Positions 6,075-30,231 of a DNA stretch of 33,645 nt are shown here, piece by piece; position 1 is the first letter of the stretch; each line of letters opens with the position of its first letter. The position numbers and the translations under genes were made by a program. The DNA is taken from assembly GCA_024232675.1 (NCBI GenBank), contig JAAEPL010000516.1, positions 1 to 33,645 on the forward strand, given 5' to 3'. Source of the DNA: Planctomycetaceae bacterium (GTDB taxonomy: Bacteria > Planctomycetota > Planctomycetia > Pirellulales > Pirellulaceae). The notes below the pieces were generated by a model. The model had not been told where the DNA came from, made no database searches, and saw only the letters and a program-made list of their open reading frames with translations.

Positions 6075-7274
6075 ATGTTCGAAAAGTTCAAAAGTAAATC
6101 GTTAGCGATACCGACCGTTTCAGGTTGGATTGCGCTGTCTGCCCTGCTCTTTGTTGGCTGCGGAAGCGAACCCCAGTTTCGTTTGAATGCGGTCCACAAA
6201 TTGACCCTAGAAACAGAATTTCAAGACGGCACGCCCATTCCCGAGCAGCACATCCAACAAGTGGGGAATTTGTTGACTGCTTTTTTCGGCACGCCCGACC
6301 AACCCCACTTCCCGGCGGGTCACGAATCGCTTGTCGACCTGCAAAGATTAAATAGAGCGGCCGGTTCTGTTCCTTCCGATCTTTCCACAGGTCGTGGACT
6401 TTACCGCAAACATTGCTCTCACTGCCACGGCATTACTGGCGACGGCGTCGGCCCAACGGCGGCATCCTTGAATCCTTACCCCCGAGATTTCCGTTTGGGG
6501 AAATTCAAGTTCAAATCGACGAAAATGTATCGCCCGCCCACCGACGAGGATATTCGCCGCGTTTTAGAACGGGGCATCGCAGGCACAGCCATGCCGTCTT
6601 TTGCCTTACTCCCCGAAGACCAAATCGATGCTTTAGTGGATTACGTTAAGTACCTCAGCATTCGTGGGCAGGTTGAGCGAGCACTGCTGGAGGAACTCAC
6701 CAACCTCGAAGAAGGAGAAGATCTTCTTCCACCGAAGACGGACGCGAATCAGGAAGATTACGAATATGCGTTGGAACTCGTGATGGAGTTGGTCGATCCC
6801 ATATTGAACAAGTGGACCAATGCAGAATCAAAGGTCGTTCCCTTAAACGGCTTGCCCGACGATTTTCAGCAACGCATGAATTTCTACTCGGATGCGGGCA
6901 AGTTATTATTTTTTGGTAAAGCGAATTGCGTTCAATGTCATGGTGAAACCGGTATCGGAGATGGCCAAACCGAGAATTACGATGATTGGACTAATGAATG
7001 GCTCAAACGCGCCAATGTTGACCCACACAAACGAGAACAAGTTCAACCGTTTTTAGAAGCGGGAGCGCTCCTGCCACGTAAAATCCGTCCGCGTAACTTG
7101 CGGGAACTGGTATTTCGCGGCGGCAGCCAACCCGCTGACCTCTATCGACGTGTTAAAGCGGGAATTGAAGGCTCAAACATGCCAGCCGCACCGACTCTAA
7201 GTGACAGCGAAGTATGGGCGTTGGTGGCCTATCTTATTGAATTACCCTACGAAACATTTTTCAGTGACGAGTGA
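6075..7274 (+). CDS. Diheme c-type cytochrome, probable lipoprotein
   Basis: Two CxxCH motifs (CSHCHG, CVQCHG); lipobox-like LLFVGCGS; directly upstream of coxB. Confidence 0.9.
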   Translation: MFEKFKSKSLAIPTVSGWIALSALLFVGCGSEPQFRLNAVHKLTLETEFQDGTPIPEQHIQQVGNLLTAFFGTPDQPHFPAGHESLVDLQRLNRAAGSVPSDLSTGRGLYRKHCSHCHGITGDGVGPTAASLNPYPRDFRLGKFKFKSTKMYRPPTDEDIRRVLERGIAGTAMPSFALLPEDQIDALVDYVKYLSIRGQVERALLEELTNLEEGEDLLPPKTDANQEDYEYALELVMELVDPILNKWTNAESKVVPLNGLPDDFQQRMNFYSDAGKLLFFGKANCVQCHGETGIGDGQTENYDDWTNEWLKRANVDPHKREQVQPFLEAGALLPRKIRPRNLRELVFRGGSQPADLYRRVKAGIEGSNMPAAPTLSDSEVWALVAYLIELPYETFFSDE

Positions 7275-7283
7275 GGGTTTAAC

Positions 7284-8069
7284 TTGGATCGTTTTTGGAG
7301 TCTTTTATTTTTGGCTGTCCCCGTCCTCGGGCTGCTGATCGTCTTGGGCGCGGTCTTCAACGTCGGCCTGCACGATGCTTGGCTCCCGGAGTCCATCGGA
7401 CCGAGAACCAAAGGGATTGACTACCTTTTCAATCTATTCCACATCATCGTGGCAGTCGTGTTTGTGGGCACCGGGTTACTGTTGGCCTTCAGCCTGTTTC
7501 GATTTCGCGCTACCAACCGCAAGGTGGCCAGTTACGTTCACAAATCCATTTGGCTGGAATTACTTTGGACCATCATCCCCGCAGGAACTTTGGTATTTCT
7601 GGCAATGCACCAGCTCCCTTATTGGCAAGCGAACAAAGAAGACCATCGGGCATTTGAGCCTGCCGGGGCCGGTTCCTCCGATCTTGAGACACCAACAGTC
7701 CGCGTGGTGGCTTACCAATTTGGTTGGCGATTTATCTATCCTGGGCTCGATGGGACATTCGATACTCGAGACGATGTCATCTCAGAAAACTTGCTGGTCC
7801 TGCCTTCCCATCAAGAGATTGTGGCAGAGCTCCGCTCAATGGATGTAATCCACAGTTTCGCTATCAACAAACTTCGCTTGAAGCAGGATATCGTGCCCGG
7901 TCTGTCACCAAGGATCTGGTTTATGATTACCCAAAATGGCGATTGGGAAATTAACTGTATGGAACTTTGCGGGTGGGGCCACTTCCGCATGAGCGCCAGG
8001 CTGCGCACGGTGTCCCCCAACGACTTTGAAGATTGGCTTATGGATATCGTCCAGAAACGCGGCTATTGA
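7284..8069 (+). CDS. coxB: Cytochrome c oxidase subunit II
   Basis: TTG start; two N-terminal TM segments; CuA motif CMELCGWGHFRM; AYQFGWRFIYPG. Confidence 0.94.
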   Translation: MDRFWSLLFLAVPVLGLLIVLGAVFNVGLHDAWLPESIGPRTKGIDYLFNLFHIIVAVVFVGTGLLLAFSLFRFRATNRKVASYVHKSIWLELLWTIIPAGTLVFLAMHQLPYWQANKEDHRAFEPAGAGSSDLETPTVRVVAYQFGWRFIYPGLDGTFDTRDDVISENLLVLPSHQEIVAELRSMDVIHSFAINKLRLKQDIVPGLSPRIWFMITQNGDWEINCMELCGWGHFRMSARLRTVSPNDFEDWLMDIVQKRGY

Positions 8070-8077
8070 TCAGGCAA

Positions 8078-9892
8078 ATGATGAAACCTGCTGAATCTCA
8101 ATTCGAAAACCAAGAATCCTCCGCGGATCAGCGGGCAGGTTTCCTGAGGCGTTACGTCTTTTCAATCGATCACAAAGTCATTGGTTTGCAGTTTCTCTTT
8201 TCAGCGCTCATCTGGTTGCTGGTAGGCGGAGCGTTGGCGATGGCAATTCGCTGGCAAATGGCATGGCCCTGGACCCGGATCCCGATCATTGGTTCGTGGC
8301 TATTTCAGAGCGAGGGTGGCCAAATTTCACCCGAGTTTTACACCATGTTGTTCACCATGCATGGCACCGTGATGATTTTTTTCGTCATCATTCCGTTGTT
8401 GCTGGGAGCCTTTGGTAATTACCTGATCCCCTTGATGATCGGGGCGCGTGACATGGCCTTTCCAAAATTGAACATGCTGAGTTACTGGTTCATGTGGCCC
8501 GCTTTTATCAGCCTGTTGATGGCCTTTTTTGCACCGGGCTATGGCCCCGGCGCCGGCTGGACTGCCTATCCCCCATTGGCAACCGTTTGGGAAGCCTCGC
8601 CCGGCAGCGGTTGGGCGCAAACTCTGTGGCTGGTGAGCCTGTTATTCGTAGGGATTTCCAGCATTCTGGGTTCGATTAATTACATTGCCACTATTTTGTT
8701 TTTGCGTGCCCCCGGGCTCGACATGTTCCGGCTTCCCATGACTATTTGGGGCCTGTTGATAACCGCCATTCTGCAAGCCTTGGCGTTGCCGGTTTTGACC
8801 GTCGCGTTAATGATGCAATTGATGGATCGTCATTTGGGCACGGGGTTCTTCACGCCCGACAACTTGATCATCAATAACTTTGAAACCGTCGGCACGGTGG
8901 GCCAACCGTTGTTGTGGCAACATCTGTTTTGGTTTTATTCCCATCCAGCGGTCTACATCATGATCTTGCCGATCATGGGGATGGTTTCTGACATTCTTTG
9001 TTGCTTCGCCCGCAAACCTCTGTTCGGATATCGTCCCATGGTTTATTCCATGTGTGCCATCGCGGGCATGGGGTTTGTCGTCTGGGGACACCACATGTTT
9101 GTTTCCGGCATGCATCCCTTCATGGGAACCGTCTTCATGATCTCGACAATGATGATCGCGTTGCCGAGCAGCGTGAAGGTATTTAATTGGCTGGCAACAC
9201 TGTGGGGTGGTCGGATTCACTTCACCACCTCGATGTTGTTTTCAATCTCCTTCGTTTCGATGTTCATCATTGGTGGATTGTCCGGCATTGTGATGGCAGC
9301 CAACTCCATCGACGAGTTTGTCCATGACACCTATTACATCGTCGCTCATTTTCACTACGTCCTATTTGGCGGAACCATCATGGGCGTTTTTGCCGCGCTG
9401 TACTTTTGGTTTCCCAAAATGTTCGGGCGGATGCTCAATGAAACCGCGGGGAAATGGCATTTCCTGTTAACCTTCATCTTTTTGAACGGTACTTTCTTCC
9501 CCATGCACATTCTCGGTTGGCGGGGCTTTCCCCGTCGCATGGCGGATCCTTATTTCAGCGGGCAGTTTTTAGACCTACTGCCGCTGAACCGAATGATCAC
9601 ATGGTGTGCATTTGCCATGGCTGCTGCACAATTGATCTTTATCGTTAACTTTTTCTACAGCATGTTTTGGGGCCCCCGGGCAGGAAAAAACCCTTGGCAC
9701 GCCAACACCCTTGAATGGACGGTCAGTTCCCCGCCGCCCCACGACAATTTCGAGCAAATCCCCACCATCACCCGAGGTCCCTACGAATACAGCAATCCCG
9801 AACATGGCGAAGATTTCTGGCTGCAGGTCGACGAGCCTGAGGGGACGGTGGAAAACGGCAAGATGTCTACGGAAGACGTGCCTGAGCGGTAA
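8078..9892 (+). CDS. coxA: Cytochrome c oxidase subunit I
   Basis: FSIDHKVIGLQF, MHGTVMIFF, FYSHPAVYIMILP, WGHHMFVSGMHP, HDTYYIVAHFHYVLFGG. The start at 8078 or 8081 is preferred over the track start 8033, which overlaps coxB by 37 nt. Confidence 0.96.
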   Translation: MMKPAESQFENQESSADQRAGFLRRYVFSIDHKVIGLQFLFSALIWLLVGGALAMAIRWQMAWPWTRIPIIGSWLFQSEGGQISPEFYTMLFTMHGTVMIFFVIIPLLLGAFGNYLIPLMIGARDMAFPKLNMLSYWFMWPAFISLLMAFFAPGYGPGAGWTAYPPLATVWEASPGSGWAQTLWLVSLLFVGISSILGSINYIATILFLRAPGLDMFRLPMTIWGLLITAILQALALPVLTVALMMQLMDRHLGTGFFTPDNLIINNFETVGTVGQPLLWQHLFWFYSHPAVYIMILPIMGMVSDILCCFARKPLFGYRPMVYSMCAIAGMGFVVWGHHMFVSGMHPFMGTVFMISTMMIALPSSVKVFNWLATLWGGRIHFTTSMLFSISFVSMFIIGGLSGIVMAANSIDEFVHDTYYIVAHFHYVLFGGTIMGVFAALYFWFPKMFGRMLNETAGKWHFLLTFIFLNGTFFPMHILGWRGFPRRMADPYFSGQFLDLLPLNRMITWCAFAMAAAQLIFIVNFFYSMFWGPRAGKNPWHANTLEWTVSSPPPHDNFEQIPTITRGPYEYSNPEHGEDFWLQVDEPEGTVENGKMSTEDVPER

Positions 9893-10012
9893 AGTTTAAG
9901 TATTACACAACCGGGGTAGGACGATAGGGAACGGGGGTTGAGCCAAGACCTATCTGCCGCGTTTGTGGCAGTTGTATCTCGATCATTGAGCAACAATTGA
10001 TTATGCTAAGGC

Positions 10013-10999
10013 ATGAAAAAATCGCCGTCCAACCGGCAAAAAACGAGTTCGGAAGAGCCCGATTTCGGAGAACGCCGCGTGGCAACTAACATAATATCAG
10101 CAACTGACGAGCCCACAGACCAAGCGGTTGGATTGGTTCGTTCCTACGTGGAACTCGCGAAACCGCGAATCTCCATCATGGTTTTGCTGACAGTTGCTGT
10201 AGCGGGACTTGTTTCGCTCCCGCAAACCGTCGCCGGTTCGGGCTGGCAACTCGTCCATGCCATGATTGGTTTGTTGTTGATTTCGGGCAGTGGATGTGCG
10301 CTCAACCAGTACTTGGAACGTTATGTCGATTGGATGATGGTGAGGACATGCAAACGTCCGCTCCCAGCACAACGACTTTCATCTGTGCAGGTCGCCGTCT
10401 TTGGTGCGGTGACGTTTGGCATCGGTCTCGCCTGGCTGATAGCCCTCGTTAACTGGCAAACCGCATTAATCGCCGGTGGCAACTGGATCCTGTATGTCTG
10501 GATCTATACACCGCTGAAGCTCCGCAGCTGGCTGAATACTTACGTGGGTGCCGTGGCGGGTGCCTTGCCAGTCTTGATCGGCAGTACCGCGGTTTGCGAT
10601 GGACAGGTTACCTTAGGAGCTTGGTTGCTGTTCGCCGTCTTGTTCATTTGGCAGTTTCCTCACTTCATGGCAATCGCTTGGCTGTATCGAGGAGAGTACG
10701 CTGACGCAGGAATCCGCATGGCCACCACGGTTGATGCCACCGGCAAACTTGCTGGACGGCACGCACTTGCCTTTTGCTTGATGCTGTTCCCGGTCACAGT
10801 TGCTGCTATCTGGCCGGCCAATTTAATCAACGTGGTCCTACTGATTCTCGCTTTAGGGCTGGCCGTTTGGTACCTCAAAGCGGCTGTCGTGTTTTGGAAG
10901 AAAACAGATACTGTTACCTCTCGACGTTTGTTTCGAGTTTCACTCGGCTACCTGACCGCCTATCTGGCACTGCTGTCGATTTGTGCGTTAGTCCAATGA
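10013..10999 (+). CDS. ctaB: Protoheme IX farnesyltransferase (heme O synthase)
   Basis: YVELAKPRISIMVLLT, NQYLERYVDWMMVRTCKRPLP, YTPLKLRSWLNTYVGAVAGALPVLIGS, WQFPHFMAIAWLYR. Confidence 0.94.
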   Translation: MKKSPSNRQKTSSEEPDFGERRVATNIISATDEPTDQAVGLVRSYVELAKPRISIMVLLTVAVAGLVSLPQTVAGSGWQLVHAMIGLLLISGSGCALNQYLERYVDWMMVRTCKRPLPAQRLSSVQVAVFGAVTFGIGLAWLIALVNWQTALIAGGNWILYVWIYTPLKLRSWLNTYVGAVAGALPVLIGSTAVCDGQVTLGAWLLFAVLFIWQFPHFMAIAWLYRGEYADAGIRMATTVDATGKLAGRHALAFCLMLFPVTVAAIWPANLINVVLLILALGLAVWYLKAAVVFWKKTDTVTSRRLFRVSLGYLTAYLALLSICALVQ

Positions 11000-12261
11000 C
11001 AACGGAGCATGATGTGAGCACCGAACAACAGCCTCCAGTGTCCCCACCTACGCCAGAAAAATCAAAGTTGCCGTTCACCATCGGTCAACTTGGCATGTGG
11101 ATTTTCATATCGACGGAAGTCATGCTCTTTGCGGGCATTATTGCCGTATACCTCGTACTTCGCTTGACAACGTTACAGTCGGGTTGGCCGACGCGAACGG
11201 ATATGCATGTCTATACTGAGACAGGCGTCACCATGACGATCTTCTTGGTGTTCTCGGCGGTTTGTGCTTGGCAATCATGGATAGCATGCAACGAGAGCCG
11301 TCCGCGGGCAGCTCGTTTATGGTTGGTGGTAACCATCTTGCTAGGTTGCGTCTTCCTAGGAATCAAATTCAACGAGTACTACGACAAGTACAAAGTAGGT
11401 TTGATGCCAATCCCGGGCGAGAATCAAATTCACGAAACGGCAGACCACCAGTACCTCTCGCATGTGAATCAGCGGCTACGCAGCATGATTGTGGATTTTG
11501 AATCGCGGGACCCGCAAACGCTCGATGAAAATGACAAACAGCGGATGGAGCTGCTGTACTCATTAAAAGCTAACATGACCGAAGCAACGGCACGCAATGC
11601 GGGGCGAACCAACAGTCCCTTTGACGCCAGACTTTACATGGATTTGATGGCCTATCAGGTATACCCTCACGTCGATTCCGGAAAAGACGTCGATAGGGTC
11701 TATCTGCCAGAACGAAAGATGCTCAAGCGGGAACTCGATGTTCTCAACGAACGTCTTGGTTTAGTCATAAAACGAGAGCAGTTGATTGTTCAACAACTGT
11801 CAAACTTGGAAGGCCAGGTCGAACGCTTCGATCTGCTCGGTGGCAGCACCGAAGAGGCCAGTAGGATGGAAACAACAAAACAATGGCTCGAGACGAAAAA
11901 GCAACAACAACAAGACTTGGCGGTCGAGTCTCGACAACTGCAAGCCACCATTGCCCCGCTCCAAGGGCGCGAAGATAATTTATCCGCCTCGTTTGACACA
12001 GAGGGTAGTTTTGAGGGCATCAACGAACGGTATGACTTGCGTCTGCCGGTAGTGATCCCCAACGGTCAAGCATGGATGAGTATCTACCTGCTCCTCACCG
12101 GCATGCACGCCCTGCACTTGATTGTGGGATTGATCGCCTTGGCATTTTGGTTACCCCAAAAACTAACAGCCCGAAAATCACCCGCTTTTTACGTAACATG
12201 TATGTATTGGCAATTTGTGGATGCCATGTGGCTAACGATTTTTGTGTTTATCTATCTCTAA
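10996..12261 (+). CDS. coxC: Cytochrome c oxidase subunit III with large internal insertion
   Basis: GQLGMWIFISTEVMLFAGIIAVYLVLR and MHALHLIVGLIALAFW...YWQFVDAMWLTIFVFIYL. Start ATG 10996 overlaps the ctaB stop (ATGA); the track start 10774 lies inside ctaB. Confidence 0.9.
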   Translation: MTTEHDVSTEQQPPVSPPTPEKSKLPFTIGQLGMWIFISTEVMLFAGIIAVYLVLRLTTLQSGWPTRTDMHVYTETGVTMTIFLVFSAVCAWQSWIACNESRPRAARLWLVVTILLGCVFLGIKFNEYYDKYKVGLMPIPGENQIHETADHQYLSHVNQRLRSMIVDFESRDPQTLDENDKQRMELLYSLKANMTEATARNAGRTNSPFDARLYMDLMAYQVYPHVDSGKDVDRVYLPERKMLKRELDVLNERLGLVIKREQLIVQQLSNLEGQVERFDLLGGSTEEASRMETTKQWLETKKQQQQDLAVESRQLQATIAPLQGREDNLSASFDTEGSFEGINERYDLRLPVVIPNGQAWMSIYLLLTGMHALHLIVGLIALAFWLPQKLTARKSPAFYVTCMYWQFVDAMWLTIFVFIYL

Positions 12262-12374
12262 GGTGAACCGTCTTTTTTTAAGCCAATACGCCCCTTCTGA
12301 TTTGAGTTGCTTGGGATACACCAGTCCGGTTAAATCAATTCAGGTAAAGACATTAGCATTTTCAGATCGACGAA

Positions 12375-13619
12375 ATGAATATCAAAAAAATCGGTATCGT
12401 GCTGTGGATCGGCGTCCTCGTTTATGGCAGCTTCTACATCTATCAACGACTTAACTTGAAACCTGTCGTTAGGCTAGATGATCCGGGGATGGCTGCCATC
12501 TTAGATCCTGAGCACGACGGCAGAGTCTTCGTAGACGTTCCTTGGAAACGTCTCCCACAAATAGAACCTTTTGATTTGACCGAACGCAGCGGTGAGGATT
12601 TCGACAGTCGCTCTCTGGCGGGCAAGCCTTATGTTCTAAGCTTCTTCTTCACCAACTGCCCCACAATTTGCAGGGATCTCAATCGACAAATCGGAGTGCT
12701 CGCCAACCGGCACAAGAACACCGAGACGACCTTCATCGGCATGTCCGTGGACACCAAGAATGATACACCGGAAGTCTTACGAGCCTACGCGGAAGACTTC
12801 AACGCCGATCCCGAGAAGTGGCTCATGCTGACAGGCCAGCAGTTCAAGATCAACGAACTTGCAAGGCAGCAACTACTCACCGTGGTCGACGGCGAGCATC
12901 ATACCGGTGACATCTTTCTGGTCGACCGCTGGGGTCGATTTCGGGATCGCTTCTCATGGGACGATCCCCGCGAGATGAAGCGGTTTGACTCGGTGTTGGA
13001 AGAAGTACTTGCCGAGACAAGCCCTCCTCTGGATAAGACGGTCAAAACCCGTAACGTTGCCGCAACGTTCCCACACACAAAACAAAACCAACCCTCTGCA
13101 CACCCGTGGCTCAGAGATTTCCAACTGACAGATTCTCAGGGAAAAGATTTTTATTCCCGTGATTTGACCGGGCAGGTCTGGGTAGGAAGCTTCTTTTTCT
13201 CAAGGTGCGGTAGCGTCTGTCCGAAACAAAATGCATGGCTAGCGAAAATCCAACCAGACCTCGCCGGCCGAAAGGTAAAGACGGTAAGCATTACAACAGA
13301 TCCGGATTACGATCAGCCAGAAATTTTACGTCCCTATGCACGGTCGTTAAACGCAACAGACGACGAATGGCTGTTCCTAACAGGCGATGACACTTACATT
13401 CAGCGTATTGGCAGCGAGTTTTTGGGAATCCCGGTTCACGGCGAACACCACTCTTCCCTGCTGGCGGTGGTGGATCGTTGGGGGAACGTGCGAGGACACA
13501 TGGATTGGCAGGCCGAGAACGGCAAGGAAAAACTCCTGAATCTAGTTGACCAATTGAATCAAGAGACGCAACCGCCCGCGGAATTCGAATTAATAAAAAC
13601 GGAGATGAACGACGAATGA
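12375..13619 (+). CDS. Tandem SCO1/SenC-domain protein, membrane anchored
   Basis: N-terminal TM; two thioredoxin-like SCO repeats: FTNCPTICRDL...GEHHTGDIFLVDRWG and FSRCGSVCPKQ...GEHHSSLLAVVDRWG. Confidence 0.9.
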   Translation: MNIKKIGIVLWIGVLVYGSFYIYQRLNLKPVVRLDDPGMAAILDPEHDGRVFVDVPWKRLPQIEPFDLTERSGEDFDSRSLAGKPYVLSFFFTNCPTICRDLNRQIGVLANRHKNTETTFIGMSVDTKNDTPEVLRAYAEDFNADPEKWLMLTGQQFKINELARQQLLTVVDGEHHTGDIFLVDRWGRFRDRFSWDDPREMKRFDSVLEEVLAETSPPLDKTVKTRNVAATFPHTKQNQPSAHPWLRDFQLTDSQGKDFYSRDLTGQVWVGSFFFSRCGSVCPKQNAWLAKIQPDLAGRKVKTVSITTDPDYDQPEILRPYARSLNATDDEWLFLTGDDTYIQRIGSEFLGIPVHGEHHSSLLAVVDRWGNVRGHMDWQAENGKEKLLNLVDQLNQETQPPAEFELIKTEMNDE

Positions 13620-18573: not shown

Positions 18574-18667
18574 ATACGACTCGCCGTCATTAGCCAAGGG
18601 ATTTGGCGATAAATAGCCGGTTGATCGCTTGTGCAATCGACCTCGGACAAGGAAAATAGGGAGATCT

Positions 18668-19885
18668 ATGATGTCAGGGCAAGAACGCAAGAACGTACTC
18701 AAAATGAAACGGCGTAGCAAGCAACAAACTTTCTGCGAAGAACGTGTCAATTCGTACCCGTTCTATTCACCGCGTTTTTGGGCCGGCATGCGTTTCACCG
18801 ATTACATGGGGTTGCTCTCCCGAAATCACTTCCGCGTCCACCCCACGCGCATCCCCATGATGTTCATGGTCGGTGGTTGCTCAGTGCTCTCAAGTGGCTT
18901 AGCGCTGACTCAACAGCTGCTCATGAAACGCCAGATCGAGGCGACCGAATTGAGCGAGCCTCCGATTTTCATCATCGGTCACTGGCGAAGCGGCACCACG
19001 TTGCTGCACGAAATGCTCTGCCTGGATCAACAGTTCTCTTGGCCCTCGACCTTTGAGTGCTTTGTTCCGACTTATCACAATCTGACCAAACCATTCCTGC
19101 AACCGTTACTCCGTTTGTTAATGCCTAGCAAACGACCTATGGATTCCATGCCTGCGGGACCAAACTTACCACAGGAAGATGAATTCGCATTGGTGGGTAT
19201 GGGCGCCCCGACCCCTTATTACCACATCGCTTTTTCTAATGAGCGCCCCGAATTCCAGCAGATGCTAAACCTGAATGATGCCAATGCGGGAGAAATCGAA
19301 GAGTTGCGTAACTCCCTTACATGGTTTTACAAATCGATCAGCTATAAAAACCCCAAGCGTTTGGTGTTAAAATCGCCGACCCACACCGGTCGCATCGCCC
19401 ATTTAGCCAAGTGGTTTCCAGGAGCTAGGTTCGTTCACATTACGCGGCATCCCCACAAGATCTTCCCCTCCAGCATCCACTTATGGAAATCACTTGCGGC
19501 AGTACAAGGGTATCAATGCTCCAAAAACGATGAGCAACGCCTGATCGATCAGGTCAATCAATGGTACCGCGAAATGTATGACGGCTACTTCGAGCAAGTC
19601 GAGCAGATTCCCAAAGAGAATTTGGTACAGTTGAAATTTGAAGATCTTGTGAAAGATCCTGTCAATCAAATTGAGTCCATCTATTCGGCCTTCGATCTGA
19701 AAGGCTTCGCTCAAGCGCGCGTGACCTTAGAGAATTACTGGTCGCAGCGAAAATCTCATCGCGCTAATAAAACGCAGTTGAATGAGGCTACCAAAGAACT
19801 CATCGATGATGTCTGGTCAGATTACATCACGAATTTTGGCTACGCCTCCACAGAAAAAGATGCGAGCTTCGTTCGAGCTGGGTAG
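18668..19885 (+). CDS. Sulfotransferase family protein
   Basis: PIFIIGHWRSGTTLLHEML (5'-PSB loop) and RFVHITRHPHKIFPSSIHLWKS (3'-PB). Confidence 0.88.
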   Translation: MMSGQERKNVLKMKRRSKQQTFCEERVNSYPFYSPRFWAGMRFTDYMGLLSRNHFRVHPTRIPMMFMVGGCSVLSSGLALTQQLLMKRQIEATELSEPPIFIIGHWRSGTTLLHEMLCLDQQFSWPSTFECFVPTYHNLTKPFLQPLLRLLMPSKRPMDSMPAGPNLPQEDEFALVGMGAPTPYYHIAFSNERPEFQQMLNLNDANAGEIEELRNSLTWFYKSISYKNPKRLVLKSPTHTGRIAHLAKWFPGARFVHITRHPHKIFPSSIHLWKSLAAVQGYQCSKNDEQRLIDQVNQWYREMYDGYFEQVEQIPKENLVQLKFEDLVKDPVNQIESIYSAFDLKGFAQARVTLENYWSQRKSHRANKTQLNEATKELIDDVWSDYITNFGYASTEKDASFVRAG

Positions 19886-19926: not shown

Positions 19927-20673
19927 TCACCCCAATTGCCGCGCCCGACGCCTAGCATGGATTTCCGGAGATGGCTCGCTGGCCTGCTGCTCATCCCTAG
20001 CTTCCTGCTCAGTCATCTGCAGAGACCGGCGATGCAACCACCAGCGGACTCCATAATCGGCGGCTCCAACCGCCAATGCAGCGACACACAGTCGCAGTGC
20101 CGTGCCCACCAGCCAATCCATCAGGAGAGGGCTTTTTTCCTGCAAACGCCCCTTCCCCAGCATCATCAGCGCATCGAGGTCACCCAAGACCACCCAGGCG
20201 GCGACGATGGACAAGACAGCCAATTTGCTGATCGCTAAAAGAACCGACACCACTTGCTCGGCGGAAAAGATCTGCCTTAAGTTACGGACCGGATTCAAAC
20301 GATCGATATCAGGAGCCAACAAACCAGGATAGGCGCGAAATCCACTTTGGGCAGTCCAAGTCAAAATAGTAATCCCAGCAATGCCCGCGAGGATCGGAAA
20401 TAAGCTGCTCCAAAATACACCTGCCACCCCCACCCAATTGCTATTCAGCATTTGTTCGGCCGACATGGAGATATCAAATTCGCCCCAGCGGCTTTGACTG
20501 AACCGATCCATTGCACGCCATAGCCAATGTCCAAATGTGGCGACCAGTGCGATGCCTCCTAACCAGACCACAGCGACCGCTAGATCTCGGCTTCGCGCCA
20601 TCTGCCCCGATTGCTGCGCACGCTGCAATCGATTTACCGAAGGGTCTAGATTTGCTTCATCTCGGTCAGACAT
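19927..20673 (-). CDS. flhB: FlhB-like export protein lacking the C-terminal NPTH domain
   Basis: NRLQRAQQSGQMARSRDLAVAVVWLG, DIDRLNPVRNLRQIFS, RWWLHRRSLQMTEQEARDEQQASEPSPEIHARRR, then a stop. Confidence 0.88.
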   Translation of the reverse strand: MSDRDEANLDPSVNRLQRAQQSGQMARSRDLAVAVVWLGGIALVATFGHWLWRAMDRFSQSRWGEFDISMSAEQMLNSNWVGVAGVFWSSLFPILAGIAGITILTWTAQSGFRAYPGLLAPDIDRLNPVRNLRQIFSAEQVVSVLLAISKLAVLSIVAAWVVLGDLDALMMLGKGRLQEKSPLLMDWLVGTALRLCVAALAVGAADYGVRWWLHRRSLQMTEQEARDEQQASEPSPEIHARRRARQLG

Positions 20674-20676
20674 CAA

Positions 20677-21462
20677 TTAACCCGTTTCCCGGAACTCCAA
20701 CCAGTTTTTCAACTCGCCCAGCGTTAACTCAAACCCACCATTAATGATCCACGGAGTCGACAACAGCACCAGCGACGTAACCGCCATACCGAAGACGGCT
20801 TTAATTCCCAGGCCAACCTGCATGCCACCCAGTTGGGGGAAATTTCGTTGGACCATTCCCAAAACGAGGGAGGCTGCCAATAGCGCGGCGATCGCGGGTA
20901 GCGCTGCCGAAACGCCAAATTCAAAAGCGTAGCCAATGGATGTCACCAAAAAATCCACGAATGACTGATCAAATACCGAAGTCCCCGTGGGTAACGCAGT
21001 AAAAGAAAACAACAAACCGTCAATCAACTGCCCAACGCCTCCTGCGGCGACAAAAACAGCCACGGTGGTCCACCAGAACAACTTACCCAAGGGTCCACCA
21101 CCTGTTTCCGAATCCGCAGGGGCCCCAAAAGATGCGAGGGAAAATCCACAAAGCCCTTCAATCACACTACCGGTGATCTGGATACCAGAAAGCATGATGG
21201 AACAGGACAAACCCATCAACGCGCCCACTAACACTTCGTTAACCAAGGTAAGCAATAACGCCGTCCATTCCAGGCTAGGCGTTTCTGCCGTCGCTACCGC
21301 GCCGGGGACGACTGCCAACGACAAGGCCAAAATGAATGCCACTTTGACTCGCATGGGCACCACACGCGTGGCGACCAAAGGCATTGTCATCACCATCGCT
21401 GTAATTCGCACCACAGCCGGGATGGCGGTCAGCAAGATGGCAGTAAGAACAGCATCGCTCAT
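20677..21462 (-). CDS. fliR: Flagellar-type export protein FliR
   Basis: Multi-TM; RITAMVMTMPLVATRVVPMRVKVAFILALSLAVVP; NEVLVGALMGLSCSIMLSGIQITGSVIEGLCGFSLAS; correct gene order. Confidence 0.9.
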   Translation of the reverse strand: MSDAVLTAILLTAIPAVVRITAMVMTMPLVATRVVPMRVKVAFILALSLAVVPGAVATAETPSLEWTALLLTLVNEVLVGALMGLSCSIMLSGIQITGSVIEGLCGFSLASFGAPADSETGGGPLGKLFWWTTVAVFVAAGGVGQLIDGLLFSFTALPTGTSVFDQSFVDFLVTSIGYAFEFGVSAALPAIAALLAASLVLGMVQRNFPQLGGMQVGLGIKAVFGMAVTSLVLLSTPWIINGGFELTLGELKNWLEFRETG

Positions 21463-21506
21463 TCTATCACTCGCATATTCTCAGTGTCGTCTTCCCGTAC
21501 GATCAG

Positions 21507-21791
21507 TCAATGATTCGCTTTATCAAACACGGTGCTGGGGATTTGTTGGATCAGATCACGACTGAACCCTGAGTAATGCTCAACAAACCAAGGAGCGCAA
21601 ATACTTATAATCACCACTGCCGCGACGAGTTTGGTTACAAACATCACGGTTTGGTCTTGAATTTGTGTAACGGCCTGCAAAACCCCCACGACGATGCCCA
21701 CGATTACGCCAACGACCAACACAGGAGCCGCCAACAGCAGCACCAGGAAGACCGATTGGCGGGCGATTTCAATTGCAATCTGGGGATCCAT
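21507..21791 (-). CDS. fliQ: Flagellar-type export protein FliQ
   Basis: 94 aa, two TM; VLVVGVIVGIVVGVLQAVTQIQDQTVMFVTKLVAA. Confidence 0.93.
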   Translation of the reverse strand: MDPQIAIEIARQSVFLVLLLAAPVLVVGVIVGIVVGVLQAVTQIQDQTVMFVTKLVAAVVIISICAPWFVEHYSGFSRDLIQQIPSTVFDKANH

Positions 21792-21809
21792 TTATGGAGA
21801 TGGCTCTCA

Positions 21810-22691
21810 TCACAAGTAAGGGCTAAAGCTCTGCATCAACATGCCAACAACCAGGTTCCATCCATCTACCAATACAAACATGATGAGCTTCAAAGGCAAA
21901 CTGACCATGGTCGGCGGTAACATAATCATGCCCAGCGAAGTCGTCACACTAGTTACCACCAAATCGATCACGAGAAAGGGCATGATGACCTGAAACCCGA
22001 TCAGAAAAGCGATTTTCAATTCGCTAATCATGAATGCCGGTAATAACACATGCAGCGGAATATCTTCAAATGTCTCGGGGCGTTGTTCGCGTTCAGCAGC
22101 AGGTAGATGTTTGTAAAACAACCAAATATCATCGACGTTTCCGGCCGCGTCGATTTGCCGGCTCATAAAACGCTTAACAGGCTTGGTGCCTTTTTCCCAC
22201 GCTTCTTCCAGCGATAACTCGCTCTCTTCCGACGTGTAGGGATCCACGGCTTCCTTTTTTATTTCCTGCCAAACCGGAGCCATGATCAGAAAGCTCATGA
22301 ACAACGCCAAAGCCGTCATGATTTGCGTTGAGGGGATTTGCTGCGCCCCCAACGCCTGACGTAGTATTCCCAACACCACGACAATGCGCACGAACGATGT
22401 GGTCATCATGGCGATGGCAGGAACCAAACTGATGACCGCCAGCAATAATACGGTTTTCACCGTACCGGATAACTTGCCTGGTGTAACAAACTCTTCCAGA
22501 TCCAGCGATTCCGAGATGGACGAATCCTGAATCGTCGTTTCCACCGTCTCATGGTCCGAACTCTGCGCGGAAGCGGGGATCGCTGTTAGACAAATGCCAA
22601 GTCCACACAAACCGGCCAAAGCCCATACCGTAACCGGGTGGATACGGCGTACTTTTTTTGATTTCGATGATAAGGAGTGCGAGAGTTTCAA
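21810..22691 (-). CDS. fliP: Flagellar-type export protein FliP
   Basis: LAVISLVPAIAMMTTSFVRIVVVLGILRQALGAQQIPSTQIMTALALFMSF; LLPAFMISELKIAFLIGFQVIMPFLVIDLVV. Start uncertain; a TTG at 22691 just after the fliO stop gives a signal peptide (track start 22778). Confidence 0.93.
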   Translation of the reverse strand: MKLSHSLSSKSKKVRRIHPVTVWALAGLCGLGICLTAIPASAQSSDHETVETTIQDSSISESLDLEEFVTPGKLSGTVKTVLLLAVISLVPAIAMMTTSFVRIVVVLGILRQALGAQQIPSTQIMTALALFMSFLIMAPVWQEIKKEAVDPYTSEESELSLEEAWEKGTKPVKRFMSRQIDAAGNVDDIWLFYKHLPAAEREQRPETFEDIPLHVLLPAFMISELKIAFLIGFQVIMPFLVIDLVVTSVTTSLGMIMLPPTMVSLPLKLIMFVLVDGWNLVVGMLMQSFSPYL

Positions 22692-22695
22692 AGTA

Positions 22696-23352
22696 TTAAG
22701 CTTCCAATAGGGTTCGGCCGCTGCGTTGGTGGCTACCCAGTGAGACATTGGAAGCTGGGTTCGTTCCCTGAAGTGCACGTTGCTGCATAGAAGCGGTCAA
22801 CAAATCCATGCGACCTTGCTGAATAGCTGACTCCAATTGCAACACTTCCTGGGGGTCAGATATTTCACTCAGTGTTTGAGACCCTGATGGAGAGGCCGCG
22901 ACTAATAATAGTCTCGTGCCCAACCGTACTATTTGCAGTTGCTGCCCGTGCACGAAGGGAATTTGGCCCAGTACCGTAAGCACTTGGTTGTCTTGTTTTC
23001 GACCTACAGGCTTCCGGGAGGATGGTCGCAAACGCCACAGAAAGACGCCCAGCAAAAAAAGGCTTAAGACTAGCGTTAACGTAGCTCCCGTTTTTATCGC
23101 GGATTGTCGCGTATTGGGGTCTCGAAAAAGTTGTAAACCGCTCGTCGAAGTGGATTCAACCGAGGGAGGACTAATTTGCTTTTGCAACCAGTCAACGCTG
23201 CGTTCGGCCGCGCTCCGCAAACCCTCCGTCTCTTGAGGTGCTGCGGAGATGAGTGTTTCACCTTCGGTGTTCTGTGCACACACGTTCTCGGCACACCCCA
23301 ACGCAATCAGAGTGCCCAGCATCAAGAAGCAAAATTTCATCATCATTTTCAT
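22696..23352 (-). CDS. fliO: FliO-like protein
   Basis: Signal peptide, single TM TLTLVLSLFLLGVFLWRLRP, then LTVLGQIPFVHGQQLQIVRLGTRLLLVAASPSG; sits between fliG and fliP. Start MKMMMKF at 23352 preferred. Confidence 0.75.
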   Translation of the reverse strand: MKMMMKFCFLMLGTLIALGCAENVCAQNTEGETLISAAPQETEGLRSAAERSVDWLQKQISPPSVESTSTSGLQLFRDPNTRQSAIKTGATLTLVLSLFLLGVFLWRLRPSSRKPVGRKQDNQVLTVLGQIPFVHGQQLQIVRLGTRLLLVAASPSGSQTLSEISDPQEVLQLESAIQQGRMDLLTASMQQRALQGTNPASNVSLGSHQRSGRTLLEA

Positions 23353-23369
23353 AAATGGTTTCTGTCGGT

Positions 23370-23933
23370 TTAGCTGGGAATCAGCCCTTGCTCCATCAAA
23401 TTTTTTGCCAAGTCGCAATACATTCGATGGATCTTTTGCATTTCTGAAAAATCCACGCTCTGGGTTTCACTAATTTGCTGACGCACCCGCTCCGCATCCT
23501 CGCTCGATAATCGATTAAGGACTCGTTCAATGAACGATTGAGGACTGCAGGTCAAGACTTGAATCGTCAGATCGGGTGCAGCCGCTTGTAAAAGCTGATC
23601 CAGTGACTCGTTATCCCACTGCACAACTTGCTCAAAACTTGGTGTAACACCCACGTGAATATGCGATCGCAATTCGGGACGTAAAATATTTGGTGTGGCC
23701 GCTGTCATCGTTTGCGGATCAAAGTAAAGGAAATCAGCAAAGTCATTTAATGAACCCTCATCGGAATGACATCCCATGGCTTTCAATTCATTAATTTGCG
23801 TTTCCGCATTAAGCCGTGTCTCTTGATCAAACCCCTGAAGTAACAGCATCACCGTTTCACGTCGGAAATTTACGAGTAAACGCGCCAACTGATTGGTTTG
23901 CCGAGTTGCTAGTTTTACTTTGGCTTCTGACAT
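23370..23933 (-). CDS. fliG: Short FliG-like protein
   Basis: SFEQVVQWDNESLDQLLQAAAPDLTIQVLTCSPQSFIERVLNRLSSEDAERVRQQI...AKNLMEQGLI matches the FliG_C pattern; TAATG junction with fliF. Confidence 0.7.
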   Translation of the reverse strand: MSEAKVKLATRQTNQLARLLVNFRRETVMLLLQGFDQETRLNAETQINELKAMGCHSDEGSLNDFADFLYFDPQTMTAATPNILRPELRSHIHVGVTPSFEQVVQWDNESLDQLLQAAAPDLTIQVLTCSPQSFIERVLNRLSSEDAERVRQQISETQSVDFSEMQKIHRMYCDLAKNLMEQGLIPS

Positions 23934-25639
23934 TACCCTGCCTTTTTATCCAACCATTGACGAATTGTGGCTGCTGCCGCATGTGGGTTATCCCGACACC
24001 ATTGATCCAATTGATCACGCATTAAATGCTGGGTTGTCACATCTAGTGGCGATTCAACTTGGGAACTGGTTACGAATTCCCCCCTGCTCTTTACTGAGAA
24101 ATGCGGCGTTGGCATTTCGGCCCGACGAGAGGCCGACGATGTGGCCTCCGTAACGCTTGGAGGTTGGTAGGTTCGCTCTGCTGTTTCAGAACTGAGATTA
24201 ACGGTCTCTGGATTGGGCGTGGATACTGCGCCTTGACGCCCTTTACCAAAAGGTCGAATAAATATAATCAAGCACAAACTGCCGCCGATGAGAGTCAACC
24301 AAACCCACTGCCCTGCCCACTCCTCTGCGGGCTTATCCCCTGCGGTAATCGACTCGGGAAAGTGAATTTCACGATCGACCGTGACCACAAAGTGTTGACT
24401 GGCTGGTAACTCACCCGCTGGAACCAGCGGTTTAACTTTTTGCTGGATATCTTCTTTTAATTGTTGAAAGATCGTTTGCCGTTGTTCGGTGGCAGTGAGG
24501 CCTTCCGCGTTGGCATTTTCGATATTCTGATTCACAAAATACTTCACGCAGCGTTCGGGAATTCCAATCGACACATTCACGTACTTGACCATCGGTCCCG
24601 CTGACTCGGTCGTTTCAAAGGTGCCATTTGCTGCGGACTCGGTCGTCTCCGATACCACCTTGGGTGATTCCAACTTCTCCACATTCCCCTGCACATTGGT
24701 TGCCAAACTGAAAAAGCCCCTTAATCGCGAAGGGGTTGTGGACGGCATGTTGGATTCAAATTCACGATGGGTCATTTTCTGAATGACCATCGGTTTACTA
24801 TGTATTTTTCGTTCATCACGGATCCGTCTGACGACGGGGTCAATCATCACTTCCACATTGACTCGAATCCCAGGATAGGCCGCTAGCGCACTACGAATCT
24901 TCAACTCGTATTTGCGTTCCGCCTGCATTTGCGCCATTTCGTGCGGTTGAAATTTCTCCGCATCACTGGCAATCACACCTGTATAAGATTTGCTCGAAAA
25001 CGTGTCGATAATCGTAATGTCATCCGGTTGCAGACCTGCCACGGCTCCGCACACCGTGTCCCGAATCGCTTTCACCTCGGACAGATTCAGATTTCGATTT
25101 TCTGCTGGACCGACATTCACAATGGCCGTTCTCTGCATGTCTTCGAAGGGCGAACTGCCGCTCGCCTCGTCGTATTCCACCATGGCTCGATCGACAAAAC
25201 GCAATTGTAAAACCATGTCTCGAATGGTTCTTTTTTTGCGATTTAATTGCACCGCCCTTAGTTGCTGGCGAGTTTGAAAGATCCCTGCCGCGGAAGTGAC
25301 TTCGGCTTGACTCTGCAAATCTCGCGGCACCGCGCCGTGATCAGCTAAAGCCTTTAGATAGGCGCCGCGAAATTGTCGTGGCACGCATACCTGCGTCCCC
25401 CGAATTTCATATTCGTTTAGCCCTGATTTCCCGAACGCAACTTGCATTAAACCGACCTCATCAGGGGTCAGTACGCGCGACTCGAATAGTGATATTTCCG
25501 TCGGAGACGAGAACTTCTGATTGGCGATAACGGAAATTAAAGTCAGTGCCACCAAAGTCACAACTCCCCAACGGGCCGCTGTCGGACGTTCGCGAAACCA
25601 ACCTGCGAGAGAACTTCCCCATTCTTGCCAAGATTTCAT
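23933..25639 (-). CDS. fliF: FliF-like MS-ring protein
   Basis: N-terminal TM; AVQLNRKKRTIRDMVLQLRFVDRAMVEYDEASG, RTAIVNVGPAENRNLNLSEVKAIRDTVCGAVAGLQPDDITIID; C-terminal TM WVWLTLIGGSLCLIIFI and acidic/helical tail. Confidence 0.85.
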   Translation of the reverse strand: MKSWQEWGSSLAGWFRERPTAARWGVVTLVALTLISVIANQKFSSPTEISLFESRVLTPDEVGLMQVAFGKSGLNEYEIRGTQVCVPRQFRGAYLKALADHGAVPRDLQSQAEVTSAAGIFQTRQQLRAVQLNRKKRTIRDMVLQLRFVDRAMVEYDEASGSSPFEDMQRTAIVNVGPAENRNLNLSEVKAIRDTVCGAVAGLQPDDITIIDTFSSKSYTGVIASDAEKFQPHEMAQMQAERKYELKIRSALAAYPGIRVNVEVMIDPVVRRIRDERKIHSKPMVIQKMTHREFESNMPSTTPSRLRGFFSLATNVQGNVEKLESPKVVSETTESAANGTFETTESAGPMVKYVNVSIGIPERCVKYFVNQNIENANAEGLTATEQRQTIFQQLKEDIQQKVKPLVPAGELPASQHFVVTVDREIHFPESITAGDKPAEEWAGQWVWLTLIGGSLCLIIFIRPFGKGRQGAVSTPNPETVNLSSETAERTYQPPSVTEATSSASRRAEMPTPHFSVKSRGEFVTSSQVESPLDVTTQHLMRDQLDQWCRDNPHAAAATIRQWLDKKAG

Positions 25640-25702
25640 ATACGGCTTGCCCTGTCGTTACGGCTTTAGTTTGCTGTGGATAATTCGTTCGACTGACAAA
25701 GG

Positions 25703-26290
25703 CTATGCAACGCGACGTTGGGACGAAGTGCGGCCTGACAAATCCAATTGGATGGCACAGCCTCCAACGGGGCATTTCAAGTCAACGGCACGATCAACCG
25801 AAATCAACTGACGTGTAAATTCCCAAGCCTCAGAAGCTAACAATTCTCCGGACTCTACCGACCGACTGTCACACCCGATTTCCAATTCGATACCGTGCGA
25901 CAGAGATCCCAAAGTTAATTCAATGGTGGAACCACGCTCAACTCGCGTGGCTAGTTCCATCAATAAACACCAGATGCCTAAATAGTCATTTTCGAAGAAA
26001 ACGCGGCCCTGCCCGTTTCCAAAACAACTTACGCTGAGCTTCACATCCAAACTTGAAAGTAAGCCCTCCAAGTCCGTCGCTAAGTCATGAACCAACTTTT
26101 CCACATTGCGCGATTGGTATCGGGAGCCCGATTGCAAGTCGCTGTGCAACAACTGAACGAGCATGAACTTCTGATCAATGCAAAGATTTACCGGAGCGAT
26201 GGGTTTGATGCCCGATAAACGATTTCGAAAAATCTCGGCAAGGCTCTGCCAGGCTCGGATGTCGGGTGTCGAAATTTTTGAGTAGTTCAT
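25703..26290 (-). CDS. Unknown protein upstream of fliF; faint histidine-kinase ATPase-like features
   Basis: ORF 64 nt upstream of fliF on the same strand; NVEKLVHDLATDLEGLLSSLDVKLSVSCFG...DYLGIWCLLMELATRVERGSTIELTLGSLSHGIELEIG loosely resembles HATPase_c without clear G boxes. Confidence 0.5.
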   Translation of the reverse strand: MNYSKISTPDIRAWQSLAEIFRNRLSGIKPIAPVNLCIDQKFMLVQLLHSDLQSGSRYQSRNVEKLVHDLATDLEGLLSSLDVKLSVSCFGNGQGRVFFENDYLGIWCLLMELATRVERGSTIELTLGSLSHGIELEIGCDSRSVESGELLASEAWEFTRQLISVDRAVDLKCPVGGCAIQLDLSGRTSSQRRVA

Positions 26291-26579
26291 GCGAATCCCT
26301 GCTTGAATCAACTGTGCGTTTCATCAACTCGTCTTCGCCATGCCGGTCATCCTGACCAACTTCTTTAGGCGAAGTCGCAGATATCTACAAGAATTTCACA
26401 AATACTGTCAATCCAGTATTTCGAGATTGCAAACGAAAGCGGTGCTATCGCTGCTCACAGGCAGGCTGCCAGCGTCTACTGTGGACGCCAAGAATCGTGC
26501 GAAGAGGAGACAGTCACGTCACTTTCCGCGCGGACTGCGGCGGCAGAGAAGCAGCCAACGTAATTAACGGAAATTTATG

Positions 26580-27398
26580 CTAGCCAATGATATTGGCGCC
26601 GGAACTGGATAATTGGGACATCATCCATTCACTGAGGTCACCCAATACTTGATTCGGCAATTGATCGGCCACGGGATATTGCCGCAAAGTCACATCAAAA
26701 CCGGCAACGTGCAGTAACTTCAATTGATGACAAAGATTTGACTCCGGAAAATAGACAGAGCGTCTACCGTGAGCCCAAAAAACCGGAACATCACGACAGT
26801 CACGCCAATTGCCCAAAGGGTTGAGATTGGCTGGCAAACTGCCGTTCAAAGACGCGACTCCGGCAAACCAATTCGGCCGCTTCAGGGCGATCCGGTAAGC
26901 CATCGTTCCGCCATTCCCTTGCCCGGCAATAAAGATCCGTTGCTTATCGATATTAAACCGAGCAGCGACGGTATCAATCTGCCAAGCTACCTGGTTAATC
27001 ATCCACTCAATGGCTTCGGATGTTTGCAGCCAGCCATAGGAACCATCTTGATCAAGTCGCTCCGTTCCAGCCAACGATACGCCGAGGTAGTTCCGATCGC
27101 TGATTTTCGGCATCACCTCATCAAGGTGTTGATGACTGGAGCCATTAGGATGCAGCCAAATTAAAAGCGGATACGCGTACCGACTTTCGTAATGCACGGG
27201 CAAAAAGATAGAACTTGGGCTTCGGTAAGATGAGGCACTTGCTCCATTAGTGATCCCCAAATGCCTCGCCATATGATCGCCTTCCGAATCGACGCGATCA
27301 GAAGAGGATCCTCCAACTGACGAATCACTAGAGAGCTCACAAAGTTCGGAGTGGGACTTGCCCATGCCAGCGAGGGGCCCAAGCTTGATGCGGTTCAT
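26580..27398 (-). CDS. Esterase/PHB-depolymerase-like alpha/beta-hydrolase-fold protein, probably catalytically dead
   Basis: YPLLIWLHPNGSSHQH, DKQRIFIAGQGNGGTMAYRIALKRPNWFAGVASLNG, VPVFWAHGRRSVYFP. Confidence 0.75.
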   Translation of the reverse strand: MNRIKLGPLAGMGKSHSELCELSSDSSVGGSSSDRVDSEGDHMARHLGITNGASASSYRSPSSIFLPVHYESRYAYPLLIWLHPNGSSHQHLDEVMPKISDRNYLGVSLAGTERLDQDGSYGWLQTSEAIEWMINQVAWQIDTVAARFNIDKQRIFIAGQGNGGTMAYRIALKRPNWFAGVASLNGSLPANLNPLGNWRDCRDVPVFWAHGRRSVYFPESNLCHQLKLLHVAGFDVTLRQYPVADQLPNQVLGDLSEWMMSQLSSSGANIIG

Positions 27399-29310: not shown

Positions 29311-30231
29311 CTAATCGTCCACTTTGGCGTTCAAGAAAGAGCTCAAATCTTCGGGATTGGCACGCGGTTCTCCTCCCGCCGTGTTATCCAATTTGCCTTC
29401 ATGCAACCAACTTTCCAATTGATCGACGAGATCGAAGAGATGGTCAAAGGAATCCACGATAAAGAGCAATTCTTGGAAATGGTCAATTTCAAAGTACTGA
29501 TTAATCACCCATTCCAATCGAATGGGGTAGCGCTGAACCTGGGGTGATTCAATCGAATGTTGAATTTCTGCCAACGAGCTTAATAAACCACTGCCATAAA
29601 CTTTAAGCTCGCTGCCTTGCTTCATTAAGCCGAACTCGATGGTGTACCAGAAAAACCGTGCCATCGCGCGAATATTGCTTTCTACAATTTTATCGCGGGC
29701 AGCAAGATCGCTCTGATTGAGTTGTTGCGCTCGTAAGGCGGCCGTCTTGGCGACTTCGCCAAACCGCACCAATACATCAGCAAATCGCTTATCGGTGTGC
29801 ATGGGAACATGCCCTGCGATATCGTGAAAAATATCGGGTTCCGGCAAGTAATCCAGTTTGTTGCCTTCGCGAATCGTAATCGTGGTCGGAAACTGACGCT
29901 GTCTCAAGCAGTCAAAGAAGATGTAAGCGGGCACGTACCCCGCCACCGCCTTTGCCTCGAAAGCCGTGAGCGGTTGCAGATACTTGTTCACGTCTGCCAA
30001 ACGCGGGACGGATTGTGGATCTAACATCAAGTTATCCACACCATCCATAAATTTGCTATTTGCGTAGGATTCCCACAAGGGTCGAATCCGCGCATACAAA
30101 CGACGCCAGGTCTCCTGATTCTCGTCGCTGTACAATTCGTAGGGTTGGTGAATGAACATATCACCGTTCTGCTGCGCGTTCTCGATGAAGGGGGCCTTGG
30201 TTGTGGTCAGGCCGATGTCTACAGTCGCCAT
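29311..30231 (-). CDS. phhA: Pterin-dependent phenylalanine/aromatic amino acid hydroxylase
   Basis: LPEPDIFHDIAGHVPMHTDKRFADVLVRFG, ARFFWYTIEFGLMK, LKVYGSGLLSSLAEIQHS. Confidence 0.92.
   Translation of the reverse strand: MATVDIGLTTTKAPFIENAQQNGDMFIHQPYELYSDENQETWRRLYARIRPLWESYANSKFMDGVDNLMLDPQSVPRLADVNKYLQPLTAFEAKAVAGYVPAYIFFDCLRQRQFPTTITIREGNKLDYLPEPDIFHDIAGHVPMHTDKRFADVLVRFGEVAKTAALRAQQLNQSDLAARDKIVESNIRAMARFFWYTIEFGLMKQGSELKVYGSGLLSSLAEIQHSIESPQVQRYPIRLEWVINQYFEIDHFQELLFIVDSFDHLFDLVDQLESWLHEGKLDNTAGGEPRANPEDLSSFLNAKVDD

Follow-up and report, generated by a model that had tools for sequence, protein, structure and literature searches.

The Operon

The subject here is a compact operon of flagellar export genes located on contig JAAEPL010000516.1 of a Planctomycetaceae bacterium (order Pirellulales; assembly GCA_024232675.1, 90% complete). 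The whole stretch of DNA that was analyzed, 33,645 nucleotides, is described as the window, of which the operon occupies positions 19,927 to 26,311. I use here the labels G for genomes, C for contigs, L for loci or stretches, and f for families of the same order, with G000 the source genome of the operon and G001 its genus-mate (a bin of genus g1, 86% complete).

All eight genes lie on the minus strand. First comes a gene for a 202-amino-acid (aa) pseudokinase (25703..26311), followed by fliF, encoding the MS-ring protein (23933..25639; Pfam YscJ_FliF, 6.5e-11), fliG (23370..23933; 187 aa; Pfam FliG_C, 1.2e-9), fliO (22696..23418; Pfam FliO, 1e-6), and then the export gate genes proper, that is, fliP, encoding the gate pore (21810..22778; Pfam, 7.6e-69), fliQ (21507..21791; Pfam, 3.3e-23), and fliR (20677..21462; Pfam, 1.5e-40). 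Last is flhB (19927..20676; 249 aa; Pfam, 1.6e-45). Pfam or profile matches thereby confirm every gene named in the initial annotation of this DNA, in the order given there and with both the export gate and the MS-ring protein included. The junctions described as TAATG or contiguous are so for fliF/fliG (TAATG) and fliR/flhB (abutting), but the remaining ones, while close, are not all of that kind. Genes for FlhA, FliHI, FliM/N, rod, hook, flagellin, or Mot proteins, which that annotation likewise had not found, are not seen in the annotated parts of the window.

Domains Lost and Domains Retained

The shortness of FliG and the truncation of FlhB, both noted initially, are found upon alignment to be clean losses of entire domains. 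With FlhB, the Pfam match stops at profile position 236 of 335, and only the membrane part is matched, by flagellar and injectisome families alike. Aligned with 24 relatives, the window copy ends before the NPTx motif, with the whole of the cytoplasmic autocleavage and substrate-switch domain gone, i.e., the domain (bearing NPTH or a variant) taken here as a requirement for a functional flagellum. Reduced FlhB copies that are not cut by contig ends all extend through the final trans-membrane helix and the segment following it and terminate short of NPTx, other than that of G004, in which a degenerate tail is present and the NPTx motif is absent. Native FlhB of flagellated Pirellulales (L040-L053) mostly carries NPTE at the autocleavage site, or NPTQ in G023, with NPTH found there in other bacteria. 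FlhB position 28, which is the site of a Salmonella ATPase-bypass change, was considered as a marker as well and is uninformative, varying in both reduced and full-size FlhB.

FliG of the window retains its FliF-binding N domain and its C domain, with the whole of the FliM-binding middle domain, including its EHPQ motif, found upon alignment to be missing. The AlphaFold2 (AF2) model comprises two domains with a disordered linker (59-94) between them, and Foldseek matches the second domain to FliG_C (1qc7) at 1.9 Å. FliF is predicted to possess two trans-membrane helices and has kept a C-terminal motif of the FliG-binding type. In the flagellum-less G026 these two proteins are fused as one of 632 aa (L054:7161-9059).

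The first gene of the operon has no Pfam hit, and is matched, with E=0.011, by a hidden Markov model (HMM) built for the kinases that lie ahead of native fliF. That family consists of histidine kinases of approximately 300 aa, found by profile upstream of fliF in most of the native flagellar loci examined (L183-L202), and it is possible that the kinase heading native Pirellulales flagellar operons is the counterpart of FlgS/FleS. The window protein, which occupies this same FlgS-like position, is without the phosphoacceptor His, the N box, and the G boxes upon alignment, and its AF2 model (pLDDT 86) matches histidine kinase DHp-CA domains by Foldseek (1.5e-7). Judged from alignment and predicted DHp-CA fold, it is what is left of a flagellar sensor kinase and is catalytically dead.

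One may ask whether such a remnant points to signaling instead of secretion. That is, FliF-FliG around the gate might be sensed, as by Campylobacter FlgS, with the kinase-derived protein relaying the assembly state. The regular presence of the longer kinase at the head of native flagellar operons, and of a remnant in most reduced ones, is what such a scaffold has in its favor. It nevertheless seems improbable given that the window copy has lost those very boxes, that the remnant is fast evolving (28% identity between G000 and G002), and that sensing alone leaves unexplained the strong conservation of the FliQ and FliR pore proteins.

Flagellar Descent

The core export proteins, meaning FliP, FliQ, FliR, and the trans-membrane domain of FlhB, are of the flagellar type. 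FliP scores 241.7 bits on the TIGR01103 fliP model, over its cut-off, and 173.3 on yscR, under its cut-off; FliP, FliQ, and FliR all score higher on flagellar than on injectisome models, with FlhB ambiguous. A FliP tree, which took in no injectisome sequences, places the window protein within the flagellar lineage of Pirellulales together with Rhodopirellula, Stieleria, and Pirellula, neighbors from which the assignment to Pirellulales is drawn. An injectisome is rejected on the basis of these model scores and this placement. For the reduced set of G000, no FliI/SctN-type ATPase over cut-off was found. Matches to the window among scanned genome contigs came from more distant Planctomycetota and from other phyla, and a plasmid search with FliP returned distant FliP homologues only.

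It is well supported, then, that the operon descends from the native Pirellulales flagellum, here stripped to its membrane export gate. The initial annotation described a machine that had 'lost or never had' canonical rotation and hook switching. A stripped machine it is, but the parts should be described as lost, not as never possessed, because FliP nests within the native planctomycete flagellar lineage and because there are full-size relatives whose genes are arranged in the same order.

A Second, Foreign Flagellum

G000 possesses a second FliP, which forms a separate clade outside of the planctomycete group. In G001 a single 97-kb contig (C136) carries FliP, FlhA, FlhB, FliF, FliI, FliM/N, FlgM, and MotA together, along with all six rod/hook-type hits and both flagellin-type hits of that genome. 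A complete flagellum of this foreign lineage is found in G000 (contigs C396 and C460; L033 and L097), G001 (C136:28.6-72.2 kb), and G002, with a related FliP in G010 and G014, and in each of the five the reduced native set is present as well. Both FliM/N matches of G000 lie on C396, and its single FliI over cut-off lies on C460, both being foreign-set contigs. What was found for the reduced set is no C ring of FliM/FliN with full FliG, no ATPase, and no rod, hook, flagellin, or stator; the rod, hook, flagellin, FliI, FliM/N, and MotA genes found in G000 are all accounted for by the foreign flagellum. Contamination of the bin is unlikely as a source of this double set because separate bins (G001, G002, G010, G014) show the same pair, and it is well supported that a reduced native flagellum and a foreign flagellum are present side by side in the same organism.

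Missing parts thus do exist elsewhere in the genome, as had been suggested, but as a separate, foreign set, save for a second FlhA, sigma-28, and FlgM on contig C426. A lineage-specific 'motor with parts elsewhere' is for this reason not supported for the reduced set. Might the foreign flagellum instead draw gate or ring parts from the reduced operon within the same cell? The coexistence of both sets in five genomes would allow it, but the foreign set of G001 is complete on its one contig, having its own FliF, FliP, FlhA, FlhB, FliI, FliM/N, MotA, and FlgM, and flagellum-less genomes carry the reduced set by itself. Such supply is accordingly hardly to be credited.

Selection and Distribution

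Between the window and the G001 operon, the ratio of nonsynonymous to synonymous substitution rates (dN/dS) for the seven fli/flh genes is 0.04-0.10, as obtained by simple pathway counting at dS near 1 and with G001 fliF partial; neighboring genes fall in the same range. On these values pseudogene decay is rejected. A decaying relic of a lost flagellum, lacking any present function, might otherwise be suspected, as many parts are gone, both FliG and the first gene have degenerated, and a second, complete-looking flagellum exists. Besides the dN/dS values, a common truncation endpoint wherever copies were aligned and the spread of the truncation across families render this very improbable. The initial annotation had proposed that a second full FlhB/FliG set could reveal the operon as decaying, and such a set is present, but the low dN/dS and the recurrence of the operon in many genera indicate that it is not decaying.

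FlhB was surveyed across the order in 148 genomes, each at least 90% complete. It is present in 142 of these and truncated in 45, five of which have a full copy too and one of which (G080) is possibly cut by a contig end. The truncation occurs in eight families and many genera. Six families (f1, f2, f3, f13, f14, and f17) include both truncated-only and full-only members, with f13 resting on G080, whereas family f8 has truncated FlhB only. Parsimony on the tree gives five changes for truncation, with well-supported branches forcing fewer, such that independent origins, though likely, are not proven.

Gene content was compared across a panel of 40 genomes and, because most of these are draft assemblies, absences rest on their repetition across genomes. 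Panel genomes with truncated FlhB only (G006, G007, G026, G029, G031, and G037) are all without flagellin, rod, and MotA, and FliI is missing from four of the six, while FlhA, FliPQR, and FlgM are still present in these genomes. Native late genes are absent from 11/11 genomes with truncated native FlhB versus 3/24 with full FlhB (Fisher, 9e-7, uncorrected for kinship), where late genes of two-set genomes were assigned to the foreign set directly in G001 and by analogy in the others. One contig of G006 carries the reduced cluster in its entirety, namely, an esterase, a kinase remnant, FliF, FliG, FliN, FliO-P-Q-R, short FlhB, a sulfotransferase, FlhA, FlhF, FlhG, and sigma-28. Two further genomes, G003 (L095) and G009 (L096), lack rod, flagellin, and MotA while keeping FliI and full-length FlhB (with SPTE in G003), and possibly these are intermediate stages of reduction. 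In the flagellin-less G017, a full-length FlhB with NSTH, i.e., with the cleavage-site proline replaced, is found alongside the truncated native FlhB (L084:750-1847).

FlhA, Sigma-28, and FlgM

Every one of the 40 panel genomes has FlhA and FliP, and 39 have FlgM; of the 11 with neither flagellin nor MotA, 10 possess FlgM. Native FlhA, sigma-28, and FlgM adjoin in G000 (the second FlhA, on C426), G002, and G026; FlgM of G031 is on the same contig as FlhA and sigma-28; and sigma-28 lies beside FlhA in most of the truncated-FlhB-only panel genomes. This second FlhA (FlhA2) is partial at a contig end in G000 and of full length in G002. Among the genomes compared, native sigma-28 shares 78-91% identity, with FliF/FliG at 41-48% within the genus. 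A FlhB without its cleaved C domain, a gate otherwise intact, and a cognate FlgM and sigma-28 are all present.

Neighboring Genes and Possible Substrates

A sulfotransferase gene (18629..19885, plus strand; Pfam PF13469, 2.2e-35) lies next to flhB. Neighborhood comparison shows that in related loci, those of flagellated genomes among them, it is conserved as the gene separating flhB from flhA. It was considered as a marker of reduced systems and rejected as such; as it flanks full-size clusters too (L053, and apparently beside FlhA in G039), it is an old neighbor. Upstream of the operon is an esterase gene (26580..27398, minus strand; Pfam, 4.2e-8), found as well upstream of the clusters of L054, L078, and L095, and probably not part of the export machine. 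Elsewhere the window holds a cytochrome c oxidase cluster (6075-13619; cytochrome c, COX2, COX1, UbiA prenyltransferase, COX3, and SCO1-type proteins) and a biopterin-dependent aromatic amino acid hydroxylase (29311-30231).

These neighborhoods bear on whether the gate exports some other, non-flagellar protein, e.g., a surface, holdfast, or effector protein, with FlgM and sigma-28 kept for independent reasons. Such export would be consistent with retention of the gate and of the FlhA cytoplasmic domain in most reduced genomes, with the polar-placement GTPases FlhF/FlhG often lying beside FlhA, and with the Lysobacter and Buchnera precedents of retained flagellar export. As candidate substrate genes, however, only the sulfotransferase and the esterase recur in the neighborhoods, and both flank full-size clusters too. 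Nor was an outer-membrane conduit seen, no genome-wide search for secretins or needles having been made, and export would therefore end in the periplasm. I consider an alternative substrate of this sort unlikely, if less so than either a scaffold or a relic.

A Late-Locked Exporter of FlgM?

That the operon encodes a non-motility export machine, as suggested initially, is probable. As to its substrate, comparison is with Salmonella lacking rod-hook genes and Fluke, in which a stop at flhB residue 258, or deletion of 270-383, locks export in late mode, such that FlgM is exported without FliK and export of early substrates stops (PMC13344023). Export without FliH-FliI, in addition, is possible in bypass mutants (PMC4905995). 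Three properties are common to the reduced Pirellulales and those Salmonella mutants, namely, absence of rod-hook genes, a FlhB ending just before NPTx, and retention of FlgM/sigma-28, and these lead me to propose, tentatively and by analogy, that the reduced native gate controls sigma-28 as a naturally occurring, late-locked exporter of FlgM. The genes present, the domains lost, the selection, the spread across genomes, and the co-retention are all well supported; from these I infer the late-locked state, FlgM as substrate, and a role for the pseudokinase.

The gate would consist of the FliF ring, a FliG adaptor of N and C domains, FliOPQR, and the trans-membrane part of FlhB, with FlhA encoded elsewhere. 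Without its C domain, FlhB would be expected to refuse early rod and hook substrates and to leave the gate permanently in its late-substrate mode. The substrate most likely would be FlgM, the anti-sigma factor that has been kept, with the proton motive force driving its export, and this export would free sigma-28 for a non-flagellar regulon, rendering the gate a secretion-coupled transcription switch. More speculatively, the pseudokinase may couple to FliF/FliG. With slightly greater reserve still, the rod-less, ATPase-less, late-locked gate of many Pirellulales may be viewed as a sigma-28 switch operating via FlgM export, one reached repeatedly by the same loss of an FlhB domain.

A number of observations weigh against FlgM export. 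Late-mode export in Salmonella also required Fluke loss and overexpression (PMC13344023). Legionella oakridgensis keeps FliA and FlgM without any gate, FlgM there apparently being degraded (PMC5655016), and retention of FlgM therefore does not require export. In the 40-genome panel, FlgM was not detected in flagellin-less G017, and native FlhA/FlgM were not found in the 86%-complete bin of G001. The second FlhA of G000 is on a different contig from the operon and is cut by the contig end, while FlhA of G026 (L087:9012-11003) and of G031 (L086:8522-10444) has lost part of the cytoplasmic domain, possibly the region at which chaperones dock. Lastly, no sigma-28 or sigma-54 promoter motifs are recognizable upstream of flagellin, FlgM, or the operon, and therefore no sigma-28 regulon can be predicted.

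Comparison with Known Systems

With the canonical flagellum the reduced set has in common orthologous FliF, FliG, FliO, FliP, FliQ, FliR, and FlhB in flagellar gene order, but it is without the FlhB C domain, the FliG middle domain, FliM/N, FliHI, rod, hook, filament, and stator. Buchnera keeps hook-basal-body parts and an ATPase, whereas the reduced Pirellulales set is without any rod or hook. The two are alike in that Buchnera basal bodies represent a flagellum reduced to basal structures, for which secretion has been proposed (as cited in PMC3459982).

Similar in design are the Salmonella rod-hook-less, flk-null flhB-deltaCCD strains, with FlhB likewise cut before the cleavage site and rod and hook missing; these, however, are selected laboratory mutants that need overexpression, with late FlgM export there being constitutive (PMC13344023), while the Planctomycetota set is natural, recurrent, and without its own FliI and FliM/N. 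Lysobacter enzymogenes, also non-flagellated, has put the flagellar export genes it kept to a new use, but its export depends on FlhB and FliI, and the effect of the genes is on type IV pili (PMC7277350), whereas both the ATPase and the FlhB C domain are gone from the reduced set. Legionella oakridgensis resembles it in keeping a sigma-28/FlgM pair without a flagellum and differs in having no gate, with FlgM probably degraded (PMC5655016). The reduced, non-flagellar type III secretion system of Myxococcales is similarly a conserved, reduced export locus that was initially regarded as a relic, but it belongs to the injectisome branch (PMC3459982), in contrast to window FliP, which nests in the planctomycete flagellar lineage. 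Among the open-licence papers listed by text searches on planctomycete or reduced flagellar export systems, no report was found of such a system in Planctomycetota.

Implications

If FlgM is indeed what this gate exports, then the switch domain of FlhB, as well as the export ATPase, would be dispensable in nature, and FlgM export could outlive the flagellum. In planctomycete genomes, furthermore, fliF, fliG, and fliPQR are no predictors of motility. A reduced gate that is under selection bears as well on the question of what use there is in half a flagellum.

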